Of a DNA stretch of 64,000 nt, positions 2,190 to 61,832 are shown piece by piece. The stretch covers positions 124,001-188,000 of the forward strand of contig JAHBSK010000008.1 in NCBI GenBank assembly GCA_019639175.1, given 5' to 3'. The notes beneath the pieces are model-generated. The model saw nothing but the letters and a program-made list of their open reading frames with translations, had not been told where the DNA came from and did not search any database. The DNA is from Acidobacteriota bacterium (GTDB lineage: Bacteria > Acidobacteriota > Blastocatellia > Pyrinomonadales > Pyrinomonadaceae). Made by a program: the position numbers and the translations under genes. How positions within the stretch are numbered: position 1 is the stretch's first letter; each line of letters starts with the position of its first letter.

Positions 2190-3683
2190 ATGAAACACAT
2201 TTCTTCGCTTTCCAGACTTTCCGCCCTGATGGCAGGAGGTTTGGGGCATCCGGCAAATTACAATCCGGTGATGGACATTCTGCGGGATGAATTTTCTGCC
2301 GAAAAGGCTTTTTTGCTGCTTCTTTCGGAAAGCGGTGAACTTGCACCTGTCGCTTCGGCGGGTGTCGAACCGGCACATTTCCGAAAGCTTGAGGCCGTCT
2401 CGGCCGCAAGCCGCCTCGGTAGTGCCGTCGAAACGCTTGCTCCGCTGGTTATTGACGACCTGAGCAAAGACGCTTCCCTTGCGTTCCTCATTGACGGCAA
2501 TGCCAAAAAGCTTTTTGCGTTCCCGATAAAACTTGCCGGACGCCCGGCAGGTGTTCTGGCGATTATTGCCGCTCCTGGCGCGCCGCCTGCCAACGAGATC
2601 GAACCGCTTGTCAGCGTTGTTGCGTCGATGATAGGCCAGGACCTTCGCGTTGACCGTTCGGTCATGGGAGAACGCCGAAAACTGCTGGAAGAGAACACCC
2701 ATCTAAAACAGGAACTCAAGGAAAAATACACGTTCAAACATATCGTCGGCACATCCAATCCGATGAAGCAGGTCTATGAACAGGTGACACAGGTGGCGCG
2801 GTCGAACGCGACCGTGCTGCTGCGCGGCGAAAGCGGAACTGGCAAGGAAATGATCGCCAACGCGATACATTACAACAGCCTACGTGCAAAAAGGCCGTTC
2901 GTCAGGGTAAACTGTGCCGCATTGCCCGACACGCTGATCGAAGCGGAGCTTTTCGGCCACGAGCAGGGAGCGTTCACGGGTGCGGGAAAAGCAAAAAAAG
3001 GCAGATTCGAGCTGGCCGACGGCGGTACGCTGTTCCTTGACGAGATCGGCGACATTCCGCTTCAAACTCAGGTCAAGCTGCTTCGGGTGCTTCAGGAGCG
3101 CGAGTTTGAACGCCTCGGCGGAACTGCAACGATAAAAACAAATATTCGTTTGATAACCGCCACCAGCCGCGATCTGGAGGAAGCCATCGCCGAGGGCAGC
3201 TTCCGTGAGGACCTTTATTACCGGCTGAATGTCTTTTCGATTTTCATGCCGCCGCTCCGCGAACGCAAAACGGACATCCTGCTGCTGGCAGAGCATTTTC
3301 TGGAAAAATTTGAGGCGGAACACGGCAAGCGCATCAGGCGAATATCAACACCGGCCATTGACATGCTGATGAGCTATCACTTTCCCGGCAATGTCCGCGA
3401 GCTTGAGAACGCAATCGAACGCGCTGTGCTGGTCTGCGATTCCAACGTGATACACGGCCATCATCTGCCGCCGACGCTGCAGACCGCTGAGGTAACAGGA
3501 ACCGTGACCGACCTTTCGCTGGAAGCGGCAGTTGCGGCGTTTGAAAAGGACATGATCCAGGACGCGCTGAAATCGAACAAAGGAAATATTGCAAAAGCCG
3601 CGCGGCTGCTGGGTTCGACCGAACGCATCATCGGTTACAAAATAAAAAAATACAGCATCGACCCGCACCGTTTTAAGAAATGA
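2190..3683 (+). CDS. Sigma-54-dependent Fis-type transcriptional activator with N-terminal GAF domain
   Basis: 497 residues laid out as in NifA/NorR-type enhancer-binding proteins. A GAF sensor domain (about 15-150) is followed by a coiled linker, then an AAA+ domain with Walker A GESGTGKE (about 213), the sigma-54 contact loop GAFTGAGK (about 260) and Walker [12 protein letters not shown] (about 278). A Fis-type helix-turn-helix lies at the C-terminus ([20 protein letters not shown]). It drives open complex formation by sigma-54 RNA polymerase. The last codons overlap the glnE start (ATGA), so the two are co-translated. That neighbour suggests a role in nitrogen control, but the GAF ligand is unknown. 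Confidence 0.93.
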
Positions 3684-6385
3684 CCGCCACGGAAACAATA
3701 CTTCGCGACCTGCCCGATCCGGAAGCCGCGGAACGGTTCATCGGCCAGTTGGCAGAAAAGCACCCGGCTCAGGCGCGGCGGCTGGAAAAGGACCGCTCGC
3801 TTTTTTCGGATGTCGTAACGGTCGCCTCACACAGCCCGCTGCTGGCGTCAACCCTTTTGCAAAATCCGGAATATATTCCGTGGCTGAGCCGAAAGCGAGC
3901 GGAAACGGTCGTCAGGAACAAGGAAGAGCTTTTGGAATCGCTCGCGCGTTATTCGCTGACAAATTCGCAGCTTGAACCTGGTGTTCTGCTGTCGCGTTTT
4001 CGACGCCGCGAACTTCTTCGCATCTATCTGCGGGACATCAGGCGTTTGGGTACGATAGCGGAGATCACCGAGGAGATCTCCAACCTCGCCGACGCCATAC
4101 TCGAACACGCCCTGCGGCTGGCGGCTCAGGAACTGGACAACCGTTACGGCCAGCCGATGGAAACCGATGAAAAAGGCAGAAGCAAACGCGCCGAAGCATG
4201 CATTGTTTCGCTTGGCAAACTTGGTTCACGTGAATTGAACTACGCCTCAGACATCGACCTGCTGTTCCTCTATTCCGCCGAGGGCAGCACCGCCGAGACC
4301 GGCCAACGCGGAGCGATAACCAACCGCGAATACTTTATCAAGCTGGCGGAAACCGTCATCAAACTTATCGGCCAGCCTTCAGGCGAAGGTGCGGCATACC
4401 GTGTTGATATGCGGCTTCGTCCGCATGGCCGTGTCGGCCCGCTCGCAGCGTCCGTTGCCGACACGATACGGTATTACCGGACGGAAGCCGCAGCGTGGGA
4501 ACGACAGGTGCTGATACGTTCGCGTTCGAGCGCGGGCAGCGAACATCTGTTCCAGCAATTTTTTAAGGAAGTCGAGCCGTCAGTTTTCTCGACGGATATT
4601 TCGGTCGGCGACGCGCTTCGCGGCGTCAGCGGATCAAAGCAAAAAATAGACATTGAGAACATCACCTCAAAACGGCTGAATGTAAAGCTCGGCATCGGCG
4701 GCATCCGCGAGATCGAATTCATCGCACAGGCACTTCAACTTGCTTACGGCGGCAAAGATCGCTGGCTGCGTTCACCGCATACGCTGATAACGCTTTCACG
4801 GCTTGGCGACCGCGGCCATCTGATCGAAAGCGAACTGACCGAACTTGCAGATGCGTACGCTTTTTTGCGGCAGGCCGAACATATCTTGCAGATGGAGAAC
4901 GGCCTGCAAACGCATTCGGTGCCGAACGACCCCGAAAAGCGCGAACTTCTGGCAAGAAGAATGCATTTGTCCGGCAGGGACGAACTGGAACAGGCTCTGC
5001 AAACTCACACTGGTAATGTAAACCGCATATTTCGCCGTGTCTTTGACAACGCAGGAGAAAGCGGGAATGAAGCATCCGATCTTTCGTCGCCATCTGTCTA
5101 TGAAGACGTGAATGCACCAAGTTTTGATCCCGAAAGCGGCGTTTACACATCAGAAAACAACGAAAATAACTTTGCTCATCTGGCACAAAACTTTCCGCGC
5201 ATCGCGGCAATGCTGGCGGGCAACGCGGACATTGCCAACGGCCTTTCAACTGACCGGCCTGAATTTCTCGACACAGACTACCGACAGATATTGAACGATG
5301 CGATAGCCGACGCAAGTGATCTGCGTTCGGAACTTTCGGCATTGCGAAGGGCAGGCAGACGCTGCCTGCTTGAGATATTAGTGCGTGATGCCGAAGAGAA
5401 ACTCACGCTCCGCGAATCAAAGACCCGCCAGACACGGCTTGCCGAGGCAGCGATGGAAGCGGCCATCACCATCAGCAAACGCGAACTCGACCGGCGGTAC
5501 GGCCCTGTTTCCGAAACGTTCGATCTGGCGATAATGGGACTCGGGAAACTTGGCGGAGGCGGCGTCGATTACGATTCTGACCTCGACCTTGTGATCGTGT
5601 ATGAAAGCAGAAGCTCCAAACAACCCGATGGCGCTCCGCAGCCCGCCGAGCTTGCCCAACGGGCAGTGGAGATATTCGTCAACGCTCTTTCGGCGGTTAC
5701 GCGCGAAGGCAGCCTGTACCGCGTCGATCTTCGGCTGCGGCCGCATGGCAAGGACGGGCCGCTGACCGTCTCACACGAGGCTTTTGCAGATTATATGCAA
5801 AATTCGTCGGCGATATGGGAACTGCTGGCGTTTGTAAAACTTCGCAGTGTCGGCGGAAATCCTGAGCTTGCGAAGCACGTCGAAAAAGAGATACGAGAAA
5901 TAATTCACCAAAAGGCCGCGCAAATAGACGCGAAAGAACTCGCCGCGGAAACGCGCCGCATACGGATGGGCCTGCAGGAACAACGTGCCGACATTCGCCG
6001 AAGCAGGGACATCGACATCAAATACGGTGCAGGCGGAATGCTGGACATCTATTTCGCCACACGTTTTTTACAGCTAAAGGCCAATTTACCGGACAGCGAC
6101 AATGACCGCAGCACATCGGCCTCATTAAAATTACTGAAAGACAGCGGATCGCTCACCGACAGCCAATATGAAACGCTTGCCGAAGGCTATGACTTCCTTT
6201 CCGCTCTGGATCACCAGCAAAGGCTGACGGTTGGCCGTGCGACACGCCTGCCCGTTGCCAACAAACAGGCAATGGAAACTATCTCACATCGAATGGGCAG
6301 CACTTCGGTTGACGAATTTCTCGGCACGCTCGCTGTTCTGATGACCGACATCCGCGCCGTGTTTGATGAAATAACCGGTAGGTAA
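3680..6385 (+). CDS. glnE: Bifunctional glutamine synthetase adenylyltransferase / adenylyl-removing enzyme
   Basis: 901 residues, close to the roughly 945 of the E. coli enzyme. Two nucleotidyltransferase domains are visible: an N-terminal adenylyl-removing half with [20 protein letters not shown] (about 180-200) and a C-terminal adenylyltransferase half with [19 protein letters not shown] (about 618-640). Each carries the paired aspartates of the family (DIDL, DLDL) and a later RVDxRLRPHG motif (near 4409 and 5725). It attaches or removes AMP on glutamine synthetase in response to PII. It starts inside the stop of the sigma-54 activator gene (4-base overlap), an arrangement that ties nitrogen enzyme control to a transcription factor. 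Confidence 0.97.
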
Positions 6386-6535
6386 TTGACCTGCCAATAT
6401 TCCGCAGAAACTTCCCCGACGCGACTGTTACACTTTCAGAAAGTCTCACAATCAGTCTCATTCAGCTACAAAATGATCTTATAGTCCAATGTGCAGTTCT
6501 TATTTGACCCGTAAAATCCTTTGGAAACATACAAG

Positions 6536-6901
6536 ATGAAAAAGTTATTCGTTATGGTGTTGATCGGTCTGGTGTCAAACTTGATGGTCTTTGCCGGAAC
6601 GGGCAAAACCCGGCAGGACCAAACCCAAAAGGTAAAAGCTAAAATAGCAAAGCTCGGAACCGGCTCAGATGTCAGAGTTACGGTAAAACTCAAGGACGGA
6701 AGAAAGATAAACGGGTATGTATCCGAAACCAAAAGCGACAATTTTATCCTCCTTGATTTCAAAACAGGGAGCGCGACCGAGATAAAGTATGCGGACGTAA
6801 AACAAGTTAAAAGAAATCGTCGTCCGTCAAACCGGGAGGGATTTGTTTTGGCCGTTATTCTTATTGCGTTAGGAGCCATCTGTGCTAATACATTGGATTA
6901 A
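6536..6901 (+). CDS. Small exported protein with Lsm/SH3-like barrel and C-terminal hydrophobic helix
   Basis: 121 residues from the ATG at 6536, chosen because it begins a signal peptide (MKKLFVMVLIGLVSNLMVFA) with GGAA about nine bases upstream; a TTG at 6521 is also in frame. The middle (DVRVTVKLKDGRKINGYVSE, then DNFILLDFKTGSATEIKYAD) has the alternating strand pattern of a small five-strand barrel. The C-terminus is a hydrophobic stretch (FVLAVILIALGAICA), so the protein may be held at the membrane. Such proteins recur in acidobacteria without known function. I assign none. Confidence 0.7.
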   Translation: MKKLFVMVLIGLVSNLMVFAGTGKTRQDQTQKVKAKIAKLGTGSDVRVTVKLKDGRKINGYVSETKSDNFILLDFKTGSATEIKYADVKQVKRNRRPSNREGFVLAVILIALGAICANTLD

Positions 6902-7032
6902 GCTCCGACATGTAGGCAAACAGAAAAAGTAAAAACTATGGCTTTTCTTAAATGATCACAAAGCCTTTTGATCGCAACAATTCTAAAGCCGTCTGGATCT
7001 GCAAAATTTTCGGCAGGAAGTATGGTCATATA

Positions 7033-7698
7033 ATGTCCAAAATATCCACTATTATAATAGTCTTGTTCTTGTCCGCATCCATTGCGGCTCAGTCTGAGGC
7101 TCTGACAAATCGGATGGTCATCGAAATGACAGCAGTTGGTCTGTCAACCGAAGTGATCAGGGCGAAAATACTGGAAAGCGAGCCGCGGTTCGATACATCC
7201 GTCGCTGCCCTGATAGAACTGAAAAAAGCGGGTGTTGCGGACGAGATAATAACGCTGATCGTCGAGCGAACCCAAACCGTCCCCCCGAGCGTATCAGACA
7301 TCTCGCAATTTTCCGATAGTGACACACCAGCCTCCGATCAGCCTTCTGTCGAGCGTGTTCCGGTCAGCCCGCAAGAAGCGATAAGAAACGCCAGAACCAT
7401 CGCGTTCAAAAAATCGTCCGCACAGCCTTCGCGGCAAAATCTGGAAAAAGCCCTGTTAAAAAATGCCGATTTCAAACGAAGCGGCCTCACCATTCTTCGC
7501 ATAAAGGAAGAGGCCGATCTTTTTGTTGAAATTGGTTTCGTTTCGGGGTCGTGGCTGACGCATCGCTATGTATATCGCATTTATGACCGTCGCTCGGGCG
7601 TGGTGCTTGCCGCAGGCGAGACCACATCGTGGGGATCGCTTGCCGAAAATCTGGCAAAACACATCAGCCGTTCGATAAAAGAACTGTCGGAAAACTGA
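7033..7698 (+). CDS. Secreted protein of unknown function
   Basis: 221 residues from ATG 7033, preferred over 6952 because it begins a signal peptide (MSKISTIIIVLFLSASIAAQ) and has AGGAAG upstream. Residues about 24-70 form a small helical unit (GLSTEVIRAKILESEPRFD, then AALIELKKAGVADEIITLI) that I recognise as a recurrent N-terminal module of acidobacterial exported proteins, of unknown role. A Pro/Ser linker follows, then a C-terminal domain (about 115-220) with beta strands that could be a DUF4410-like lipid- or envelope-associated fold. It lies in a row with two other small exported proteins (6536-8331). Confidence 0.7.
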   Translation: MSKISTIIIVLFLSASIAAQSEALTNRMVIEMTAVGLSTEVIRAKILESEPRFDTSVAALIELKKAGVADEIITLIVERTQTVPPSVSDISQFSDSDTPASDQPSVERVPVSPQEAIRNARTIAFKKSSAQPSRQNLEKALLKNADFKRSGLTILRIKEEADLFVEIGFVSGSWLTHRYVYRIYDRRSGVVLAAGETTSWGSLAENLAKHISRSIKELSEN

Positions 7699-28087: not shown

Positions 28088-28645
28088 ATGAAAAGAGTCT
28101 TTAGATCTATTCAATTCGCTTCAAACATTGCTATCATCCTATTAGCTGTATTGGCTGGTTATATTTTGATCAGACAATACATTTTTGAAACCAGTTCCAC
28201 TGAAACGGCCTCAAATCCCAATCCTACTGCATCATCAAAACAAGCATCAGCCAGGCCTAGAAGAGAAAGTTCGGTCGGCAAACCTGTTCCGCTTTCCGGC
28301 ATAGACTGGAAGGATAATGGGCGAACATTGGTTTTATATCTCTCCACTTCTTGCCGTTTTTGTAATGACAGTATTCCTTTTTATAAGAAGATTCTAAATG
28401 AGACGCCGAATACGGGCATTAAATATATGGCTGTATTCCTGCAAAATGAGGCCACAGGAACCAAATATCTTGATTCTTACAATGTTAAAGTCGATAAGGT
28501 TGTCTCTGGAGCCTTAGATGGTATAGGGGTTTCAGGAACACCTACACTTCTTCTCGTTGATGAAAATGGAATGGTCACTGATGCCTGGATAGGCAGACTA
28601 GATAAAGAAAAAGAAAACGACGTGATCGCAAAGCTGCTAAATTAG
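28088..28645 (+). CDS. Membrane-anchored thioredoxin-like protein
   Basis: 185 residues from ATG 28088, chosen over a TTG at 28052 because AAGGAG sits 11 bases upstream. One N-terminal membrane helix (about 9-28) is followed by a Ser/Pro linker and a thioredoxin fold with the redox pair STSCRFCNDS (about 85-95) and the cis-Pro loop GVSGTPTLLLVDENG (about 150-165). It is likely a periplasm-facing disulfide reductant or peroxiredoxin-like protein. It is divergent from the cysteine-rich secreted protein pair, a plausible client. Its last four bases overlap the convergent phosphatase gene. Confidence 0.8.
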   Translation: MKRVFRSIQFASNIAIILLAVLAGYILIRQYIFETSSTETASNPNPTASSKQASARPRRESSVGKPVPLSGIDWKDNGRTLVLYLSTSCRFCNDSIPFYKKILNETPNTGIKYMAVFLQNEATGTKYLDSYNVKVDKVVSGALDGIGVSGTPTLLLVDENGMVTDAWIGRLDKEKENDVIAKLLN

Positions 28646-30297
28646 TTTCTCTTGACGATCAGAAGTGTGATGTCGTCATTTGCAGGGCAGTTCTCGGTGA
28701 AAGTGGAAAGAGTGGATTCGATGCGGTCGCGAATGCCGGACGCTGAGGATTTGATGTTGGACTTAACCGCATTTTTGAGCCGGTCCATTCCAAACTCCTC
28801 ATCACGCGGATTTGTCGCCTCAGAAACGCCGTCTGAATAGACCACAAGCACGTCGCCCTCGCCCAAACTGATCTTGCCGACCTCGTAATCCGCCATTCCC
28901 ATCAGCCCAAGCGGAAGGCCGCCGGAATCGAGCGTCTGCATTCCGCCGTCAGCCGTCCCGAAAAGCGGCGGATTATGTCCGGCATTGACGTATGTCATTT
29001 CGTTCGTTTCAGGATCGAGTTCGCCGATAAAAAGCGTGACAAAACGATTGGCCGGAGTGTTTTCGGCAAGGTAGCGGTTGACGGAGCAAACGGTCTCATA
29101 TAACGAATTTTGCGCCGCAACCTGTGCGTGGATCGCCGCGTGAAGGCTGGACATCAACAGGGCGGCGGCAGTTCCCTTTCCCGACACGTCACCGAGAGCA
29201 ACGATCATCTTACCGTCACACGTCGGGATAAAATCGTAATAATCGCCGCCGATCTCATAGCAGGAAAAAGAGATGCCCTGAAACTGATAACCTGACAATT
29301 CGGGCGGGGCCGAAGGCTGAAACCGCTGCTGTATCTCGGTGGCGAGTTCGAGTTCGTGCTCCATCCGCTCGCGTTCCATTCGCTCTTCGAGAAGTGTAGC
29401 GTTCTCAACGCGTATCGAAGCGACAGACGCAAGCGTTGTCAGAATGTTGAGATGCTCTTCGGTGAACGTCGCTTCATAAGTCGGCGAATCGGCATAGATC
29501 AGCCCGAAAATATTCCTTTCGTCAACGCACAGCGGCACAGCCAGAACCGACCGGATGCCCTGAAGCATAACCGTCTGCGACGCAAAACGCGGATCGCTCT
29601 GGGCGTTTGCGGTCAGCACCGACCTGCCGTTCTTTAACACTTCGGCCATGACGCTGTGGCTGATACGGACCTCTTTCAGATCACCTTCACTGCCGCGAAT
29701 GCGTGCGACCATGACCTTCATTTTATCTTCGGCGTCGTCGTCCCGCAGCATTATCACACAGCGTTCCGCCGGAACCGCCTCAAAAACAAGCGACGCGACC
29801 TGATCAAGCGTTTCCTTGAGTCCGCTTGCCGAAAGCAGGGCGACGCCGACCTTGCTTATCAGCCCGAGCAGTTCGTTCCGCGATGAAAACTGGCCTTTCA
29901 GCAGTTCGGTCGTGGGTATGCGGCCGCTCTGCAATGAGATGGTCTGAGACGGATCGAGAGCGGCAGTCCGGTCGGTTATAAGCGTCGCCGCCGGAAGCGC
30001 ACCGGCGGTGTTGTGATCGAATATTATCGAGGTCTCGCCTATCTGTATCTCGCCGCCGGAAACAAGCTGGACCGAACCTTTGACAGGCGTTCCGTTGTAC
30101 CGTGTGCCGTTCGCCGAACCGAGGTCGTGAAGAAAGAAATGATCGCCTTCCTGCCGCACCTCGGCGTGAAGCCGCGATGCAAAGGCGTCCGGGATGCACA
30201 GATCGCTCCGGGCGGAACGTCCTATGGTCGTTCGCAGCCGCGAAAGCTCAAAACTTTCCGGCCCCGAATTAAAATTATTGACGATCAACCTTGCCAT
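28642..30297 (-). CDS. FHA-GAF-SpoIIE (PP2C-type) protein phosphatase
   Basis: 551 residues in three domains. FHA (about 1-95: TIGRSARSDLCIPD, SRLHAEVR, DLGSANGTRYNG) binds phosphothreonine. GAF (about 145-300) is a small-molecule sensor. The SpoIIE/PP2C phosphatase (about 340-548) shows GGDYYDFI, ALGDVSGKGTAAALLM, NAGHNPPLF and YSDGVSEATN, with the metal-binding Asp residues. It removes phosphate from Ser/Thr on partner proteins, probably substrates of the kinase in the same operon. It is the last gene of a leftward four-gene module (34204 to 28642), separated from the RDD gene by 20 bases. Confidence 0.93.
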   Translation of the reverse strand: MARLIVNNFNSGPESFELSRLRTTIGRSARSDLCIPDAFASRLHAEVRQEGDHFFLHDLGSANGTRYNGTPVKGSVQLVSGGEIQIGETSIIFDHNTAGALPAATLITDRTAALDPSQTISLQSGRIPTTELLKGQFSSRNELLGLISKVGVALLSASGLKETLDQVASLVFEAVPAERCVIMLRDDDAEDKMKVMVARIRGSEGDLKEVRISHSVMAEVLKNGRSVLTANAQSDPRFASQTVMLQGIRSVLAVPLCVDERNIFGLIYADSPTYEATFTEEHLNILTTLASVASIRVENATLLEERMERERMEHELELATEIQQRFQPSAPPELSGYQFQGISFSCYEIGGDYYDFIPTCDGKMIVALGDVSGKGTAAALLMSSLHAAIHAQVAAQNSLYETVCSVNRYLAENTPANRFVTLFIGELDPETNEMTYVNAGHNPPLFGTADGGMQTLDSGGLPLGLMGMADYEVGKISLGEGDVLVVYSDGVSEATNPRDEEFGMDRLKNAVKSNIKSSASGIRDRIESTLSTFTENCPANDDITLLIVKRN

Positions 30298-30317
30298 TCT
30301 ATTGGAAAAGCTAAACT

Positions 30318-30830
30318 TTAATCGAACGGACGTTTATTGGCAAATATAACGACCGTTCCGGCGATATAATCGTGAAGAGCACGGCCCTTTCGGCTAAAAA
30401 TTGCGGTCAGCAGTTCCAGCCCCGCCGTCAGCGGCACAAGGACACAGGCTGCGATCTGTCTGAACAGCATTGTCCGCACGCGCGGCATTGAACCGTCGGA
30501 TGCAACTGTGCGAAGTCCTGTGGCAAATTTGCCGAGCGTTCTGCCCGTAAAAGCCGGAAGAAGGATCAGGTTCGATATGCCGACAAATATCGCCAAAAGC
30601 CATCCGATATTGTTGAGTTCGCTGTTTAACAGAGAGGCTCCGTCCTCACCCGAATAGCGGCCTAAAAGAAGAAAGACCGTCGGGAACGCGGCAACCAATA
30701 TGTAGTCAATAATGGCGGCTCCGCATCGTAAAAAAAATGGCGCCCTAACCTTGTCTGCGGAAAAATTGACGACCTTTTCCGTTGTCCTGCCGGCACGTGC
30801 GGGAGAGGTACTTGCTGCGCTTGCGTTCAT
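30318..30830 (-). CDS. RDD family membrane protein
   Basis: 170 residues. The RDD domain (about 28-165) has FFLRCGAAIIDYILVAAFPT (first helix with the conserved R-D), a second helix pair, GRTLGKFATGLR and a final KGRALHDYIAGTVVIF. RDD proteins often sit beside signal or transport genes; some act as transporters. The gene lies between the kinase and the phosphatase genes of the module, with gaps near 20 bases on either side, so the three are likely one transcript. Its role here is unknown; it may be a membrane anchor or target. Confidence 0.88.
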   Translation of the reverse strand: MNASAASTSPARAGRTTEKVVNFSADKVRAPFFLRCGAAIIDYILVAAFPTVFLLLGRYSGEDGASLLNSELNNIGWLLAIFVGISNLILLPAFTGRTLGKFATGLRTVASDGSMPRVRTMLFRQIAACVLVPLTAGLELLTAIFSRKGRALHDYIAGTVVIFANKRPFD

Positions 30831-30849: not shown

Positions 30850-33528
30850 CTAGCCGATCATGAAATGCAGGGTCGTGTCGCCGATCTTTATACGGTCGCC
30901 GCTTGCCAGTGCCTGCGGTTTATGCGGAACAAGATGTGTCGATGAGCGTGATGCCGAAGCGACAACCGTGCCGTTCGAGGAACCGAGGTCTTCGACCAGG
31001 AACGTCGATCCGCTCCGCCATATCCGCGCGTGACGCCGCGAGATCTTTGTTTGCGGATCGAACCGCGAAAGGTCGATCTCGGGGAAGATATTTGACATCG
31101 GATCTCTTCGCCCGACCAGATTCTCGTCCTTTGTCAGAGAGAATGTAGGCGGCGAAAGTTCTCCGGTCCCTTCCACATAGAGTTTGGCCGTCATCGCTGC
31201 CCGCGAGTACGTGCCGGAATTGACGCCTTCGTGCGCGATCGGCTGTTTTGAACCGCAGAACGCGCAGAACAGATCGGTCGCGACTATCCGCTGGCCGCAG
31301 AAACCGCAAAAGACGGTCTGGTTGGCAAGGCTGACCGACGACGGGGCTTCAGAAACACCGTATGACACACCTAGCGAATCAAGCGCCGCAAGGTGTTCGG
31401 AAAGGGTCAGCTTCAGTGCGGACGCGGACTCGAACCGTGCATCGGCAGTGTATTCGACCGTGCGCATAAGTATCAGCTCGATCTGGTCGGACAAACGCGG
31501 ATTTATCTGCCGCGGACGCGGATTTTTCTGAAAATCGAATATCAGCAAAGGGTTGCTTTGCGGGTCGGCTCCGGTCAGCAGATGGAACATCGTGGAACCG
31601 AGGCTGTAGATGTCCGATCTCGGCTCGACATTGCCGCTGAAAAGTTCAGGCGGAGCATAACCCATTGTCCCGACTGCGGTAACGCCTTTCTCTTCGCGCT
31701 GGCTGATGGAACGCGCTATACCGAAATCTATCAGCATCACGCGGCCCGAATTGCCATCGACCATAATGTTGGACGGTTTAAGGTCACGATAGACAATAGG
31801 CGAGGGCTGGCTGTGCAGATATTCCAGCACATCGGCTATCTGTATCGCCCATTCGGTCACGGTCCTTTCGTCCAGCCTGCCTTCGGGCGCTGCCCGCAGA
31901 CGGCTGGCAAGGTCGCCGCCCGATATATATTTCATTACCAGATAAAAGCGGCCTTCGCTTTCATCAAAAAAGTAATCGAAAATGGTCGGTATTGACGGAT
32001 GATCCAGCGTTGAAAGGATCGTTGATTCACGCTTAAAGTCGTTTATCGCCTTTTCCTGCTGTTCGTCCTCGATATGGGCCTGAACCATTTCCTTTACGGC
32101 CCTGAGAACTCCGCCAAGGTTATTGTCGCTTGCCAGATAGACCGCGCCCATTCCGCCGCCGCCGATCTTTCTGAGAACCTCATATCGGCTGTTAAGGACA
32201 GTTCCCTCGGGCAGCGGTTTCAGCTTGGTCGATCTCCTGCCGTCCGTATCGTTCTCGCCGATATTGTTCGCGGTCTGTGAAGCCGCATTTTCTCCGGCAG
32301 AGACGCCGGATGTTCCGGACTGTTGTGAGCTTTCCGTTCCCGCCGCCTGATCGCCACTGTCAGAAAGTGCCGAGAAAACGTCCGGTTCCATTATGCGGAC
32401 GGAATCATACATTGCACCTGAAGCAAACGGATCGTGCTGCTCCAACTCCTCGTCCGGCATTGCTATCTGAAAAGCATCTGCGTCTGGGTCATTCGGCAAA
32501 GATGCTGCTGCATCCTGTGCTTCATGAGGCTCAGCCGGGATATCTTCTTGTTGCTCCTCCTGTGAAGCAATGTCACCGAGGCTGTTGTCATTCCACAACA
32601 TGGTCGGCGGCTCGTCCTCATCCTGATCGGCAGCGGCCGGAGCCTCGTCCCTTTCTTCTAAAGGAGACGCATAAGTTTCTCCGTCATCCGGCCCGGCAAT
32701 AACTTCAGGTGTCGGATCAGCGGCTGCTTCTGCCTGACCTTCCGGCAAAGGCAGATCCTCAGGCGTTTCGGACAATGATGATTCGGCAGCACCTGCTTCC
32801 TCAGGATATTCACCGACAGCGGGTGTTAAAGCCGGGTCAAACGCGGGGATATTTTCCTCAAGCGTGGCTATTGCCTCTTCCTCAATGTCAGGCGTTGCAA
32901 GGTCAAGCGGCGGAGCGGGTTCGTGAGTGGCGGCATTGCCCGCCGCGTCAACCGGCCCTGATAAAGTCTCGGCCTCAGACCTTTCATCCTCAACCGACGG
33001 CAGATCGGCATCAGGTTCGGGAATTTCCGCAGACGCAGCCATTTCAACCTCAGCCCTCATTTCTTCGGAAAGCCCGCCGGAGGTTTTGACAGGAATGTTG
33101 TCTGATGTAACGCCGGAAAAAGGATCGCTGGCGGTGCCGGAAATGTCCGAGAGAATGTCTGGCATCGGAACCTCCGGCATCTCGCTTTCCACGTTCGCCT
33201 CAGCGGCGGTTTCTTCCAATGCGGGAGACTCGATCTCGGCCTCAGGTTCTTCAATGGTTTCCGGTTCAGGCTCGGCAGCAAACTCCGACGCAGGCGGATC
33301 GAACTGAGAAACGACCTCATCCTCGGCAAATGCCGGCACAGCAGCTTCAGCGGAACCCGCACCGCCGGCCAGCCGCCTGATCTCCTCTTCGGGCATCATT
33401 ATCGTGCTTTCGAGTTCGTCAGCGGGTTCGGGTTCAGCGGAAATGACCGGCGTAAGCAGAATGCCGCATATCGGGCAGAAACTTTCTTCGCCCGCCAGTT
33501 CCGAATCGCATTCGTGACACTTTTTCAT
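30850..33528 (-). CDS. Ser/Thr protein kinase with N-terminal zinc ribbon and C-terminal FHA domain
   Basis: 892 residues from ATG 33528, chosen because a zinc ribbon (KKCHECDSEL, SFCPICGIL) begins there. A very acidic, Glu/Ala/Pro-rich region follows (about 40-440, likely disordered). The kinase domain (about 446-700) has KIGGGGMGAVYLAS, VKEM, VYRDLKPSNIMVD, LIDFGIARSI and GTMGYAPPELF. A second zinc ribbon (FCGFCGQR, FCAFCGSK) and an FHA domain (about 790-890: VGRRDPMSNIFPE, KISRRHARIW, DLGSSNGTVV) end it. The unusual feature is two ribbons and a large acidic spacer. It is probably cytosolic. It is the second gene of the module and its FHA may bind its own or a partner's phosphosites. Confidence 0.93.
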   Translation of the reverse strand: MKKCHECDSELAGEESFCPICGILLTPVISAEPEPADELESTIMMPEEEIRRLAGGAGSAEAAVPAFAEDEVVSQFDPPASEFAAEPEPETIEEPEAEIESPALEETAAEANVESEMPEVPMPDILSDISGTASDPFSGVTSDNIPVKTSGGLSEEMRAEVEMAASAEIPEPDADLPSVEDERSEAETLSGPVDAAGNAATHEPAPPLDLATPDIEEEAIATLEENIPAFDPALTPAVGEYPEEAGAAESSLSETPEDLPLPEGQAEAAADPTPEVIAGPDDGETYASPLEERDEAPAAADQDEDEPPTMLWNDNSLGDIASQEEQQEDIPAEPHEAQDAAASLPNDPDADAFQIAMPDEELEQHDPFASGAMYDSVRIMEPDVFSALSDSGDQAAGTESSQQSGTSGVSAGENAASQTANNIGENDTDGRRSTKLKPLPEGTVLNSRYEVLRKIGGGGMGAVYLASDNNLGGVLRAVKEMVQAHIEDEQQEKAINDFKRESTILSTLDHPSIPTIFDYFFDESEGRFYLVMKYISGGDLASRLRAAPEGRLDERTVTEWAIQIADVLEYLHSQPSPIVYRDLKPSNIMVDGNSGRVMLIDFGIARSISQREEKGVTAVGTMGYAPPELFSGNVEPRSDIYSLGSTMFHLLTGADPQSNPLLIFDFQKNPRPRQINPRLSDQIELILMRTVEYTADARFESASALKLTLSEHLAALDSLGVSYGVSEAPSSVSLANQTVFCGFCGQRIVATDLFCAFCGSKQPIAHEGVNSGTYSRAAMTAKLYVEGTGELSPPTFSLTKDENLVGRRDPMSNIFPEIDLSRFDPQTKISRRHARIWRSGSTFLVEDLGSSNGTVVASASRSSTHLVPHKPQALASGDRIKIGDTTLHFMIG

Positions 33529-33562: not shown

Positions 33563-34204
33563 CTAATTATTTCTGTAAAACCGCAGAAACGTCTTTCCGA
33601 CAATTATCTCGTCGCCGTCATTCAGGACCTGCGGCGAACCCGGCAACAGCCGCCGCCCCCGATTTATAAATGTTCCGTTGGTCGAACCAAGGTCCTCGAT
33701 CATAAATGTGGACGCACCGCGAATGATGCGGGCGTGCTTTCTGGAAACCTTTGCGTCAGCGTCGTACGGGTCCAGATCGACATCGGGGAATATTCCGTTA
33801 TCCGCGTCCCATCTGCCGATATACGATTCATCGGCGGTCAGAGGAAATTCGGTGTTTGCCGCCGCTCCGCGTTCGACCACAAGCCTTGAATGCGGCTGAA
33901 CCGGTCCTTTTTCGACATGAACAGGAGCTTCAGGCTCTGCGGATCTTTCGTCTTCAGGGAAAACGGGCGGTTCAGGCAAAGGTTCCGACACCATTTCCGA
34001 AGGCTGCTGTATCACCTCTACCATTTGCGGCATATCGACCGAAGTGACATTGACCGGCCGGATATCCGGATTGCTGTTATGAAACGGAGCGGAGACAGGA
34101 CTTACAGGCATCTGCTCGGACTGAGCCGCAAGCCTTGTCCCACACTCGGAACAAAACCGCGAACCTTCCTGACTGCTTTTTCCGCAAGATACGCAAACGA
34201 TCAT
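33563..34204 (-). CDS. Zinc ribbon - FHA domain protein
   Basis: 213 residues. A start at ATG 34204 puts a zinc ribbon first (VCVSCGKSSQEG, FCSECGTRL). A Pro-rich linker follows, then an FHA domain (about 110-210) with YIGRWDADNGIFPDVDLD, KVSRKHARIIRG and DLGSTNGTFINRG. FHA domains read phosphothreonine and often mediate kinase signalling complexes. Same layout as the ends of the kinase in the next gene, as if derived from it. First gene of the leftward module, 34 bases before the kinase start. Confidence 0.88.
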   Translation of the reverse strand: MIVCVSCGKSSQEGSRFCSECGTRLAAQSEQMPVSPVSAPFHNSNPDIRPVNVTSVDMPQMVEVIQQPSEMVSEPLPEPPVFPEDERSAEPEAPVHVEKGPVQPHSRLVVERGAAANTEFPLTADESYIGRWDADNGIFPDVDLDPYDADAKVSRKHARIIRGASTFMIEDLGSTNGTFINRGRRLLPGSPQVLNDGDEIIVGKTFLRFYRNN

Positions 34205-56345: not shown

Positions 56346-57356
56346 TTATGCCGGCGCGGCCTCGGCCTTTGCAAACCCCAGAACGCCCTTAACCTCGTCC
56401 TCTATCCGGTCACGAAGGTCGGTGTTTTCCTTGAGCATGTTCTTCACGTTCTCACGTCCCTGCCCAAGGCGTTCGCCTTTGTAGGAAAACCACGCACCGC
56501 TTTTTTCCACCACATTCCGAGCCGTTGCCAGATCTATCAGATCGCCTTCGCGTGAGATGCCCTCGCCGTACATGATGTCAAATTCCGTTTCACGGAAAGG
56601 CGGAGCGCATTTGTTTTTCACCACCTTTACGCGTGTGCGGTTGCCGACGACCCTGTCGCCGTCCTTTATCGCCCCGATGCGGCGGATGTCCAGCCTGACG
56701 CTGGCGTAAAACTTCAGGGCCTTGCCGCCCGTGGTCGTTTCCGGCGAACCAAAGAAAACCCCGATCTTTTCACGAAGCTGATTGATGAAGATGAACGTCG
56801 TCCGCGAATTGGCAACGATAGCCGTTATCTTTCTCAGGGCTTGCGACATCAGGCGAGCCTGCAAACCCGGCAGCGAATCGCCCATCTCACCATCAAGTTC
56901 CGCCCTCGGCACCAGTGCCGCGACCGAGTCGATCACGATGACATCGACGCTGTTTGACCGCACAAGCGTTTCCGCTATTTCCAATGCCTGTTCACCCGAA
57001 TCCGGCTGTGAGATCAGCATATCGTTTATATTGACGCCCAATTTTTCCGCGTATTCCGGGTCCATTGCGTGTTCGGCGTCAATATACGCCGCCACGCCGC
57101 CGCCTTTTTGCGCCGATGCCACGACCTGAAGCGCCAGCGTCGTCTTGCCCGAACTTTCCGGCCCGTAAACCTCAATGATACGGCCGCGCGGAAAACCGCC
57201 GACACCTATCGCCGCATCAAGGCTGAGGCAGTTCGTTGAGATGGCTCCGGCTTCCTCGTGCGGCCTTTCGCCCAAACGCATTATCGAGCCTTTTCCGAAT
57301 TTCTTCTCTATCTGGAGCAGGGCGGATTCAATTGCTTTGCTTTTGTCAATACTCAT
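56346..57356 (-). CDS. recA: Recombinase A
   Basis: 336 residues. Walker [13 protein letters not shown] (about 66-77), [33 protein letters not shown] (Walker B and L1 region), [10 protein letters not shown] and the L2 loop [20 protein letters not shown] are all present. It forms filaments on single-stranded DNA for homologous pairing and activates LexA self-cleavage. It has the normal core but a short C-terminal tail (E. coli RecA has 353 residues). No recX or lexA is adjacent. The upstream region carries an inverted repeat (57427-57471) that could be an operator. Confidence 0.98.
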
Positions 57357-57801: not shown

Positions 57802-60111
57802 ATGGCAACCAGTGCGTTCATAGGACAAACGCTTGACGACAAATATCTGATCGAACGCGAGCTGGGACGCGGCGGCATGGGAACGGTGTATTTGGCGACC
57901 CATCTGGGAACCGAACGTCCGGTCGCGGTAAAGATAGTTGCGCCGCAATTCATGAAACGGCCGGAATTCGTCGAACGCTTTCGCCGCGAGGCTCGTGCCG
58001 CGGGCCGGCTCCGGCATCCTAACGTCGTTGATGTGACCGATTTTGGCTTTGCCGAAACGAGCGAAGGCAGGGTCGCATATCTGGTGATGGAGTATCTGGA
58101 CGGCTGTACGCTGGGCGAGATCCTCGAAGAAGAAAAGAATCTGCCGATAAGCTGGACGCTCGATATTCTTGAGCAGATATGCTCGGCGGTCGAAGCCGCC
58201 CACAATGAGGGAATAATTCACCGCGACCTGAAACCGGACAACATCTGGCTGGAACCGAACATGCGCGGCGGCTACACCGTCAAGGTGCTTGATTTCGGCA
58301 TCGCCAAGCTGGAAGCCGACCATGGACAGGATCATAACGGCGTTTCAGAACCGAGGACATCGGTCCCGACGCAACTGCTCGGGCCAAAGCTGACCGTGAG
58401 CGGAATGGCCGAGGAAAGAACGCATCATGATGACGGCGTTGCCGCGACAATGATGCTGGAAAATCCCGCCGCAAACATCACGCGTCCCATTGCGGACATA
58501 ACTGAAAATGAGACCATGATCCAGGTCCAGCCTGACGGTGACTCACATGGCATACAGAAGAGTGTGGCCGGCGAGGACGAAGGCACGCGCCTTTTTTCGG
58601 AACAACCTGACACTGACTCGGCATCGCTTTTGAAAGCGACTGCACGCGGCGATCTTGGCGACCTGACGCGTGTCGGAGCAGTTCTCGGCACACCGCTCTA
58701 TATGTCGCCTGAACAGTGCCGCGGCGACAGGCTGGATTCCAGATCGGATATTTACAGCATCGGCGTCATTGCTTACCAGATGATCTCCGGCAGCCCGCCA
58801 TTTACCGGAGATTTTACATCGGTGATGGAATCTCATCGTGAAAATCCCGCTCCGCCGCTTGTCACAAAAGGCGTCAGAAAAAAGCTGAGAAAAGTGATCG
58901 CATCATCTCTGGAAAAAGATCCGGCGGATCGTCCGCAGTCTTGCGTGGCTTTTGCCAGCCTGCTGCGTTCGCGGTCAGAGGGCGTGTTCGGCATACTGCG
59001 GCGTTCGGGGATGATCTATACGGCCCACATGCCGAAATTCCTGAAACTTTCGGCCCTGTTCCATGCTCCGGTGATACTCCTTCTGTTCGTTATCATTATC
59101 CTGAGCCTGCTATCGGCCGGAGGATATGTGGACAGAGGCGTTTCGTCTTTCGGGATCGGCCTGACAGGCGTTCTCTACACGGCAGTCACGGCGCTGTGCG
59201 TCAGTCTCATAACCGGAACGATCACCTGGATAGTCATTCATTCGCTTGCAGTTCCGCTGCGTCCCATACGGCTTCGCGATTCGCTGCGTGAGGCTCGGAG
59301 CAAACTCAAGACCTTTGCCGGAGCCGGGCTGATTAACATTATCCTGTCCATTGGCGGGGCCGCTCTGGTCGGCGTTGTGATATTCGTACTGGCGATGACG
59401 ATAGGGTGGCTTTTGATCAGCGTCGAGGCCGGAGCGGTCGCGGGAATTGTCCTTGCCGGAACGCTGGGCAGCCTGACGTTCTTTGGGATAAGCATTTTTC
59501 TGATGCTTTCTGTTCCGTCCGTGATGATGGAAAATCTCGGCGTTTTTGGCGGCATTCGCCGGTCGCTGGAGTTGGTAAGGCGTTCGATCTTAACATCGAT
59601 CGGCGTTTACGCTATCATGTTGCTGATACCGCTGATCCTTGCGTTTGTGATGTCGCTGTTCATAAATCTCATCGCGCGCGAGGTTGACCGGAGCGTGCAA
59701 CGCACAAGTGTTGCCGCCCAGACGCAGGAAGAGGCCAAAGCCACGGATAACGACGCTGAAAAGGATGAACGCAGTTTTTCGATAAATCTGAGCACGCGCG
59801 ACGCAGTGCCGGTAAAGATCACGGACACCGAAACGGAAAAGGCCGACAACACCGCAAAGAATGTCATCATAGAAACGATCACGCAGATACTGGTGATACC
59901 GCTCCAGATACTATCGACATCCTTTACGGCGATCTTCGTCGCGCTTCTTTATCTGAAGACCCGGCAGGCAGGCGGCGAACCGCTGCAGGACCTTTTCTTC
60001 AAATTTGAGGAAAGCGACAAGCCGCGAAAGAAATGGCAGGAACGGGTTCGTCAGGGCCTTATCCGTTCGGGCCGCATTTCCGGATCCGGCATAAGGTCCG
60101 GACCAGGCTGA
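57802..60111 (+). CDS. Transmembrane Ser/Thr protein kinase with insertion in the activation segment
   Basis: 769 residues. The kinase N-lobe has ELGRGGMGTVYLATH and AVKIVAP; the loop IHRDLKPDNIWLE and VLDFGIAKLE (about 160) follow. The GTPLYMSPEQ motif that normally comes about 20 residues later appears only near 297. The roughly 110-residue insert (about 170-290) is acidic and Thr/Ser-rich. After the kinase (to about 395) come six or seven membrane helices (about 410-700, with ILLLFVIIILSLLSAGG and LISVEAGAVAGIVLAGTLG), with no extracytoplasmic sensor repeat. The VWFA gene begins eight bases after its stop. Confidence 0.93.
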   Translation: MATSAFIGQTLDDKYLIERELGRGGMGTVYLATHLGTERPVAVKIVAPQFMKRPEFVERFRREARAAGRLRHPNVVDVTDFGFAETSEGRVAYLVMEYLDGCTLGEILEEEKNLPISWTLDILEQICSAVEAAHNEGIIHRDLKPDNIWLEPNMRGGYTVKVLDFGIAKLEADHGQDHNGVSEPRTSVPTQLLGPKLTVSGMAEERTHHDDGVAATMMLENPAANITRPIADITENETMIQVQPDGDSHGIQKSVAGEDEGTRLFSEQPDTDSASLLKATARGDLGDLTRVGAVLGTPLYMSPEQCRGDRLDSRSDIYSIGVIAYQMISGSPPFTGDFTSVMESHRENPAPPLVTKGVRKKLRKVIASSLEKDPADRPQSCVAFASLLRSRSEGVFGILRRSGMIYTAHMPKFLKLSALFHAPVILLLFVIIILSLLSAGGYVDRGVSSFGIGLTGVLYTAVTALCVSLITGTITWIVIHSLAVPLRPIRLRDSLREARSKLKTFAGAGLINIILSIGGAALVGVVIFVLAMTIGWLLISVEAGAVAGIVLAGTLGSLTFFGISIFLMLSVPSVMMENLGVFGGIRRSLELVRRSILTSIGVYAIMLLIPLILAFVMSLFINLIAREVDRSVQRTSVAAQTQEEAKATDNDAEKDERSFSINLSTRDAVPVKITDTETEKADNTAKNVIIETITQILVIPLQILSTSFTAIFVALLYLKTRQAGGEPLQDLFFKFEESDKPRKKWQERVRQGLIRSGRISGSGIRSGPG

Positions 60112-60119
60112 CAATACCA

Positions 60120-61832
60120 ATGCGTCAAATAAGGATGAAAACGATAACGAGCCTGGCCGTTGCGATGATGTTTTTCGCGTCATACGCCATCGGCCAGGAG
60201 ATACCCTATTCGGGTGAGGTCATCGAAATAGAGAACAGCTTTGGACGGATAGACGCTGCCGAAAACGAGAGCGAGGATATGGTGCGGATCGAAACAGCGG
60301 CCGGATCGCTCACCGACAGTCGGATCTCCGCACAAAAAATAGGCAGCCGCATACGCATAACCGTAACGCCGAATGCCGGGAACGAGCGTGTTGATATTTC
60401 CGTGAAGGTTCCGGCACGCTCAAAGATAAAGGCCGTAACAGCCGAGGGCGAGATACGCATTAGCGGAAATCTTGCTTTGATCGATGCCCGCAGCAATACC
60501 GGAACGATCTCAATGGACACACCTGACACCGACGTCAAATATGATCTGAAATGGACGGCGTCGCGGCCAAGATATGTAGCCGATTATGAATTGGCTAAGG
60601 TGCGTGAACGTTCGGGCGGACGCTTTGAGATAAAAGGCCGGTATCGCTCGGAAAACGATCCCGAAAGCGTCAACGGTTCCGCCGAAGAAGGCGAAACGCC
60701 TATTGCGAAAAACGTTGAGATAACCGTTTCGACCGCACGCGGAATCGTTCTCCTCAACGTTCCGCCGAATGAGGTGACGAGCGACCTCCGCGAAAGGCCT
60801 CTGACCGAGGCCGCCAAAGCCATTATCCGCAGCGGCGACCGCGTGATGATGGACGCCATTCGCCGTGCCGCTCCGAAATATTTTGGCGATTACGAACGGA
60901 CATTGCCGCCCATAACCAGAACACCACAGCTCACGACAGGCGGCAGGGAAAGGCCCAACGCGTCAGGACGCGTAAAACGAGCCACCGTCACCGTGACCGA
61001 CCTGCGGAACCGGGCAGTTTCCGGCCTTACGGCATCGGATCTTGAGATCACCGAGAACGGACGGCCGCGGCAGATAGTTTCAGTGGAAAAGGTACAGGCT
61101 CCGGTCAACCTTGTGCTGCTTTTGGATGTGTCGGGCAGCATCGAAAATTACGTCACTTTCATAAGAAAAGCAGCCCGTTCGTTCGTCGAAACGGTCGATG
61201 CGGACGACCGCATCTCGATAGTGATCTTTAGCGAAGACGTAAAGGTGCTGGCGAATTTTTCGACCGATAAAACGAGACTGTCCGAAAGCCTCGACACTTT
61301 TGACGCGGGCGGAGCGACGGCATATTACGACGCGCTCGGATTCACCATCGCGGAATCGCTGAGGCCGCTGAAAGGCGAGCGAACGGCAATAGTCGTCCTG
61401 ACCGACGGCGACGACAACCGATCTTTTCTTGCGTTCGATTCACTGATCGGGGCCGTTGAGGAAAGCGGAGCATTGATCTATCCGTTGTATGTCCCAACGG
61501 GCCTGGTGGCAGCGTCTGCTGCAAACGGCCTCGGCGACATCGACCCGCTGCGTAATCGGCATTTGACGCTTACTTCAAAAGCTGACGACGAAGGGCGGCA
61601 TTTGGCAAAGGTTTCGGGCGGTGTCTATTATCCGATCTCGCAGCTTTCGCAGATACAGACGGCCTATGAGGATATTGTCGTCCAGCTGCGCACCGCTTAT
61701 GACATAACCTTTTCATCCGACGCAGCCGAACTCCCCGAAAGTGACTCTCGCCAAGCCTCGCCCCTGCTCCGCATCCGCAGCAAACGCGAAAATACCTTTG
61801 TCCAGATCGGCCCTGTTACCAGAGTTCAGTAA
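60120..61832 (+). CDS. Acidobacterial VWFA-domain secreted protein (TIGR03436-like)
   Basis: 570 residues from ATG 60120 (ATG 60135 also begins a signal peptide, MKTITSLAVAMMFFASYAIG). The first half (about 25-290) is a beta-rich region (AENESEDMVRIETAAGSL, RISGNLALIDARSNTG) that resembles adhesin-like domains. A VWFA domain (about 325-540) has the metal-site motif LDVSGSIEN, TAYYDALGF and LTDGDDN, then a tail. The pattern (NLVLLLDVSGSIENY and VVLTDGDDNRSFL) is the acidobacterial VWFA type. It likely binds a protein or matrix ligand outside the cell. It starts eight bases after the kinase gene, so both are one transcript. Confidence 0.9.
   Translation: MRQIRMKTITSLAVAMMFFASYAIGQEIPYSGEVIEIENSFGRIDAAENESEDMVRIETAAGSLTDSRISAQKIGSRIRITVTPNAGNERVDISVKVPARSKIKAVTAEGEIRISGNLALIDARSNTGTISMDTPDTDVKYDLKWTASRPRYVADYELAKVRERSGGRFEIKGRYRSENDPESVNGSAEEGETPIAKNVEITVSTARGIVLLNVPPNEVTSDLRERPLTEAAKAIIRSGDRVMMDAIRRAAPKYFGDYERTLPPITRTPQLTTGGRERPNASGRVKRATVTVTDLRNRAVSGLTASDLEITENGRPRQIVSVEKVQAPVNLVLLLDVSGSIENYVTFIRKAARSFVETVDADDRISIVIFSEDVKVLANFSTDKTRLSESLDTFDAGGATAYYDALGFTIAESLRPLKGERTAIVVLTDGDDNRSFLAFDSLIGAVEESGALIYPLYVPTGLVAASAANGLGDIDPLRNRHLTLTSKADDEGRHLAKVSGGVYYPISQLSQIQTAYEDIVVQLRTAYDITFSSDAAELPESDSRQASPLLRIRSKRENTFVQIGPVTRVQ

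Follow-up and report, generated by a model that had tools for sequence, protein, structure and literature searches.

A long activation-segment insert with a recurrent threonine motif in a PknB-like kinase clade of Blastocatellia

Control through the activation segment of bacterial Hanks-type Ser/Thr kinases is usually viewed as a matter of one or two phosphosites in a loop of about 20 residues. FHA domains bind phosphothreonine, and PknB-GarA (PDB 6i2p) is a case in which such a domain docks on an activation loop. In the mycobacterial pair PknQ-MupFHA, the FHA domain docks on the phosphorylated activation loop of the kinase (PMC4238996). The substrate motifs of mycobacterial Ser/Thr kinases present a Thr with acidic residues upstream, notably at position -3, and hydrophobic residues at +3 and +5 (PMC7164672, PMC5686395). 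Between the kinase domain and the membrane helix of StkP, another bacterial Hanks kinase, lies a juxtamembrane domain that is phosphorylated and regulatory and does not belong to the catalytic core (PMC12077195). In eukaryotes the activation segment of the MAST-family kinase Greatwall/MASTL, itself an intact kinase, carries an insertion of about 550 residues, and phosphorylation of this insertion by Cdk1 activates the enzyme (PMC11961639). The open-access literature, outside which most subscription papers lie, yielded no report of activation-segment inserts in bacteria and nothing on Acidobacteriota kinases.

The kinase considered here is encoded in a 64,000-nucleotide stretch of acidobacterial DNA, referred to below as the window (Table 1). 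Its reading frame is uninterrupted, with no frameshift, and contains in order a Gly-rich loop, the catalytic Lys, HRD, DFG and SPE, the catalytic residues being invariant or at least 90% conserved among 74 aligned sequences. Pfam Pkinase (PF00069) matches the ORF in two pieces that flank a gap, with 152.4 bits against a cut-off of 31.7, and the kinase domain spans residues 6 to 395 or so, insert included. PknB and PknA of M. tuberculosis are the top matches both by sequence and by fold, a crystal structure of PknB together with the substrate GarA ranking first by fold. Judged by every catalytic feature the ORF is an intact PknB-like Hanks kinase, as the preliminary description had held of its frame and motifs. 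With PknB, PknA and the PASTA-type Stk kinases it shares the fold, the motifs and a Thr opposite PknB Thr171; it differs from them in the insert of about 105 residues directly before that Thr, in its polytopic C-terminal membrane domain and in having no PASTA repeats. No PASTA repeat was matched by Pfam in the ORF, and the PASTA-kinase model NF033483 gives 290 bits, against a cut-off of 450. Nor is the domain of the MAST/AGC family, PknB and PknA being its best sequence and fold relatives, and the likeness to Greatwall is one of position only. By these comparisons the protein is a Hanks member, is not a PASTA kinase and does not have Greatwall as its nearest relative. Its resemblance to StkP lies in a regulatory stretch placed outside the catalytic core, which here would lie in the activation segment.

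Table 1. Positions of the kinase gene, its parts and its neighbours in the window
Feature	Position	Strand	Remarks
Hanks-type Ser/Thr kinase gene, 769 aa	57802..60111	+	kinase domain with activation-segment insert, and C-terminal polytopic membrane domain
Gly-rich loop GRGGMGTV (22-29) and catalytic-Lys motif VAVKIV (41-46)	57865..57939	+	
Catalytic loop HRDLKPDN (140-147) to VLDFGIAK (162-169)	58219..58308	+	catalytic residues invariant in 74 aligned sequences
Activation-segment insert, residues 170-287	58309..58662	+	predicted disordered, acidic, with Thr-motif array; from AF2 pLDDT <50, clade conservation and motif enrichment
Thr-motif copy, relaxed match, (VA)ATMMLE	58444..58461	+	
Thr-motif copy (E)NETMIQV	58507..58527	+	
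Thr-motif copy (D)EGTRLFS	58579..58599	+	GT[KRQ][LIM][IL] at the same place in many orthologues
Conserved end of activation segment, LTRVGAVLGTPLYMSPEQ	58663..58716	+	Thr289 (58666-58668) opposite PknB Thr171
C-terminal membrane domain	58984..60108	+	about six long helices; no confident solved relative
VWFA protein (NCBIfam TIGR03436, acidobact_VWFA)	60135..61832	+	likely co-transcribed with the kinase; neighbour conserved in the genus and near relatives
recA, divergent upstream neighbour	56346..57356	-	conserved in ten examined loci

From DFGIAK to GTPLYMSPEQ the kinase has 126 residues, compared with 15-25 in outgroup kinases (Melainabacteria, Myxococcota) and 13-36 in the remaining kinases of this genome, and the excess is therefore put at about 105. 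These values agree with the preliminary description, which gave a gap of about 125 residues where some 20 are normal, and about 110 extra residues. Aligned by phmmer with M. tuberculosis PknB, the kinase matches up to residue 176 and then, after a break, again from 288, where Leu288-Thr289 faces Val170-Thr171 (the first residues of VLDFGIAK, LTRVGAVLGTP and GTPLYMSPEQ are 162, 288 and 296). This break places the excess directly N-terminal to the canonical activating Thr. The kinase retains an intact LTRVG site of its own. Ordinary activation-segment length, a usual and not a defining trait of Hanks kinases, is not found here; this length varies among them, and a long segment does not exclude membership.

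An AlphaFold2 model of the kinase domain was built from an alignment of 74 sequences, residues being given as model numbering plus 5. The kinase core has pLDDT >90 and residues 169-294 are nearly all below 50, which predicts disorder in the insert. The insert is also acidic, as had been claimed together with its richness in Ser and Thr, with a net charge of -12 over 114 residues (clade mean -9.4). Three other accounts of the insert were considered. That it is a folded domain was rejected for now, given the low pLDDT and no Pfam match at that place. A frameshift or assembly artefact was rejected since independent genomes share the insert and dN/dS in the closest pair is well below 1. A general habit of the kinases of this genome or class was rejected on the lengths of the other kinases at this place; in six genomes of the class, kinase matches were mostly continuous among the matches listed, best scores first.

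A strict match to the kinase was obtained in 35 of 36 same-genus genomes, and a scan of GTDB genomes recovered relatives across Blastocatellia, every clear orthologue having the insert at the same place. Recurrence at this place in related genomes had been named beforehand as a check, together with an opposite outcome, homologues without the insert and a frameshifted gene; the former was seen and the latter was not. Matches with E <= 1e-70 occurred only in Blastocatellia (19 genomes, in a sample of 247 from the phylum). A tree of 109 kinase domains, sampled by similarity to this kinase, was computed from the sequence outside the insert by a quick method without bootstrap; in it 79 kinases that bear the insert fall into one group together with one whose segment is shortened (SH-aLRT 99). 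The insert is 61-202 residues long in 79 of these 80 kinases. On these data the clade carrying the insert is confined to Blastocatellia (Acidobacteriota) in the sampled genomes, and one gain followed by one shortening is the simplest reading of the kinase tree. In the exception, L099 (kinase at about 3800-5731, +), the segment is 35 residues long; its MAG bears the label Verrucomicrobium sp., and the kinase is nested within the Acidobacteriota clade, which points to gene transfer or a MAG binning error. C-terminal parts differ among some clade members, two of which have ankyrin repeats, so the insert appears to be tied to the kinase domain rather than to one type of C-terminus. As it is kept across the whole kinase clade, the insert probably represents built-in phosphorylation and docking sites and not an accident. 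Two genomes of family f3 of the class, G042 and G038 (loci L168 and L171), have very large kinomes for bacteria, with 122-141 Pkinase matches in 8.3-8.4 Mb each, and they encode several insert-bearing paralogues, two of them with C-terminal ankyrin repeats.

The residues around the Thr positions of the insert are not random. When each insert is shuffled for comparison, Thr shows an excess of Glu at -3, of Gly or Ala at -1 and of Ile, Leu or Val from +1 to +3 (z as high as 15), and the Ser contexts are nearly flat. A strict motif, [DE]-x-[GAEKSQ]-T-x-[ILVMF]-[ILVMFQH] (for example EAATLIQP or EGTRLF), occurs in 99 copies in 79 inserts, where shuffles predict 2.1. Since the motif was read off the same inserts, this excess is partly post hoc, and two controls were used, the motif with Ser and a set of representatives whose divergence is too great for recent descent to explain a shared motif. 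The Ser version is found five times in the 79 inserts against 2.1 expected, near chance. Among 21 representatives with pairwise identities below 30% there are 29 strict copies against 0.6 expected, four of the 21 having none. Per 1000 aa the inserts contain 8.7 copies, and a background of 740 other proteins from the examined loci contains 0.16. Many clade members have one or two strict copies each; near-tandem copies of the EAATLIQP type are present in L170, and EAQTHLL, ETETRIF and DAETRIM in L165. Most orthologous inserts are about 20-40% identical and vary in length. In aligned cells between orthologues, motif Thr is retained in 76%, other Thr in 52%, Ser in 28% and other residues in 0-39%, figures that cover all pairs with a similar core, the pairs not being independent. 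For this genome and L010, which form the closest pair, the insert gives a dN/dS of 0.19, compared with 0.02 for the core. In the aligned inserts, then, the letters between the motifs drift and the Thr sites stay, a pattern of selection that keeps Thr, not Ser, in an acidic-x-x-Thr-x-hydrophobic context. The motif is of the same kind as that of the mycobacterial kinase substrates, with the hydrophobic residues closer to the Thr.

The preliminary description also gave the kinase six or seven membrane helices and a coupling to a VWFA protein. A confident model (mean pLDDT 88.8) is all-helical with about six long helices, and a crude hydropathy count over the C-terminal half gives eight; the domain matches GPDPase_memb weakly, below the cut-off, and no solved relative was found at E <= 0.001. 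The VWFA gene adjoins the kinase in 28 examined loci and probably starts at ATG 60120 or 60135, 8 or 23 nt past the kinase stop. The coupling is one of genomic adjacency, in the genus and its near relatives, and does not extend to more distant family members, where neither the VWFA gene nor recA is near the kinase.

An FHA-docked kinase requires FHA-domain proteins in the same cell, and this genome encodes 16 such domains, as well as over 15 kinase matches besides the present one. None of the examined loci has an FHA gene beside the kinase, and the presence of FHA proteins does not discriminate, because class members without the insert also have them (5-22 domains). The window contains a compact Ser/Thr phospho-signalling cluster from 28645 to about 33800, comprising an FHA-GAF-SpoIIE phosphatase (28645-30333, -) found in 31 of 31 genus genomes searched, an adjoining FHA-bearing kinase (kinase match 31555-32184, FHA 30880-31116) and a further FHA gene (33596-33784). 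The FHA-to-GAF linker of the phosphatase, ATLIAD...ALDPSKTIS, is conserved in 30 examined genus loci, and its ATLIAD and DPSKTIS resemble the Thr motifs of the insert, which hints at a wider phospho-Thr network. Unusual kinase-like proteins were also observed. Just past the window and about 5 kb downstream of the kinase, a 710-aa protein in L148 (G000:C20:186000-194000, ORF from about 3358, +) has HRG for HRD and AFG for DFG, and in L147 of the same genome (G000:C1:305500-308500, ORF on -) HGS and DFA stand at these positions; both are likely pseudokinases. L106, from Obscuribacterales, has a tandem pair of Ser/Thr kinase domains in one protein (3127-7246, +).

Taken as a whole, the data suggest a mechanism to which we give about equal belief and doubt, namely that the insert is a disordered, (auto)phosphorylated Thr array that docks FHA proteins or grades activation. 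The activation loop of this PknB-like membrane kinase would hold an array of Thr phosphorylation sites just before Thr289, phosphorylated in cis or in trans by this or another Hanks kinase. Once phosphorylated, the array would be a multivalent dock for FHA-domain proteins, through which substrates and regulators reach the active kinase and its output is graded. Use of the multisite array as a dock is favoured by the kinase-substrate-like motif, FHA docking on PknQ, the fold match to PknB with GarA, the 16 FHA domains and the phosphatase linker. The earlier proposal of a built-in substrate or docking site is in this way supported and sharpened to a Thr motif, phosphorylation and docking being what we infer from it. 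PknQ-MupFHA and PknB-GarA resemble the proposed arrangement in having phosphorylatable activation-loop sites as an FHA dock, and differ in having one or two sites on a loop of normal length, where here many Thr motifs lie in a long insert that is a candidate dock. The array would multiply a kind of docking already described on mycobacterial kinase activation loops (PMC4238996), so the claim of a regulation not known in bacteria is not borne out, and a phosphorylated activation-segment insertion as a type of switch is known from Greatwall (PMC11961639).

Other readings of the same array deserve consideration. Unphosphorylated acidic Thr segments might lie across the active cleft as a pseudosubstrate and slow the kinase until phosphorylation releases them. 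The position of the insert beside the cleft, its acidic charge and its substrate-like motifs are compatible with such autoinhibition; however, AlphaFold2 places no docked segment, with pLDDT <50 almost throughout, and the number and spacing of motif copies vary widely, which is unusual for a docked inhibitor, and we regard it as unlikely. Alternatively a second kinase might phosphorylate the insert and so turn the kinase on, as Cdk1 does with Greatwall. The genome offers over 15 candidates, but the motif is like that of mycobacterial kinase substrates generally and indicates no particular upstream kinase, and the LTRVG site is still in place, which makes this gate rather unlikely.

The abundance of similar Thr sites in cis, nearly tandem in some members, would also suit a phosphate sink or timer, outside substrates having to compete with the array for the active site and the output becoming threshold-like. 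With only one or two strict copies in many members, this is improbable. Finally, the low identity and variable length of the inserts are what would be expected of disordered filler tolerated in a surface loop without a specific role. The Thr-specific retention, the motif excess in divergent representatives, the dN/dS of the closest pair and the single shortening in 80 kinases all speak against filler, and we consider it very improbable.

A more far-reaching reading is that a clade of Blastocatellia kinases evolved, once, a multisite phospho-Thr platform within the activation segment, making the switch loop also a multivalent FHA dock or multisite switch, for which the open-access literature gave no bacterial precedent; this broader proposition is tentative, and we place it a little short of an even chance. 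A clade with arrays of 61-202 residues is a natural test of the loop as a scaffold or multisite switch. The repeated motif offers a starting guess at the code by which substrates and FHA partners are recognised in these bacteria, among which are genomes with over 120 kinase matches and very little biochemistry.
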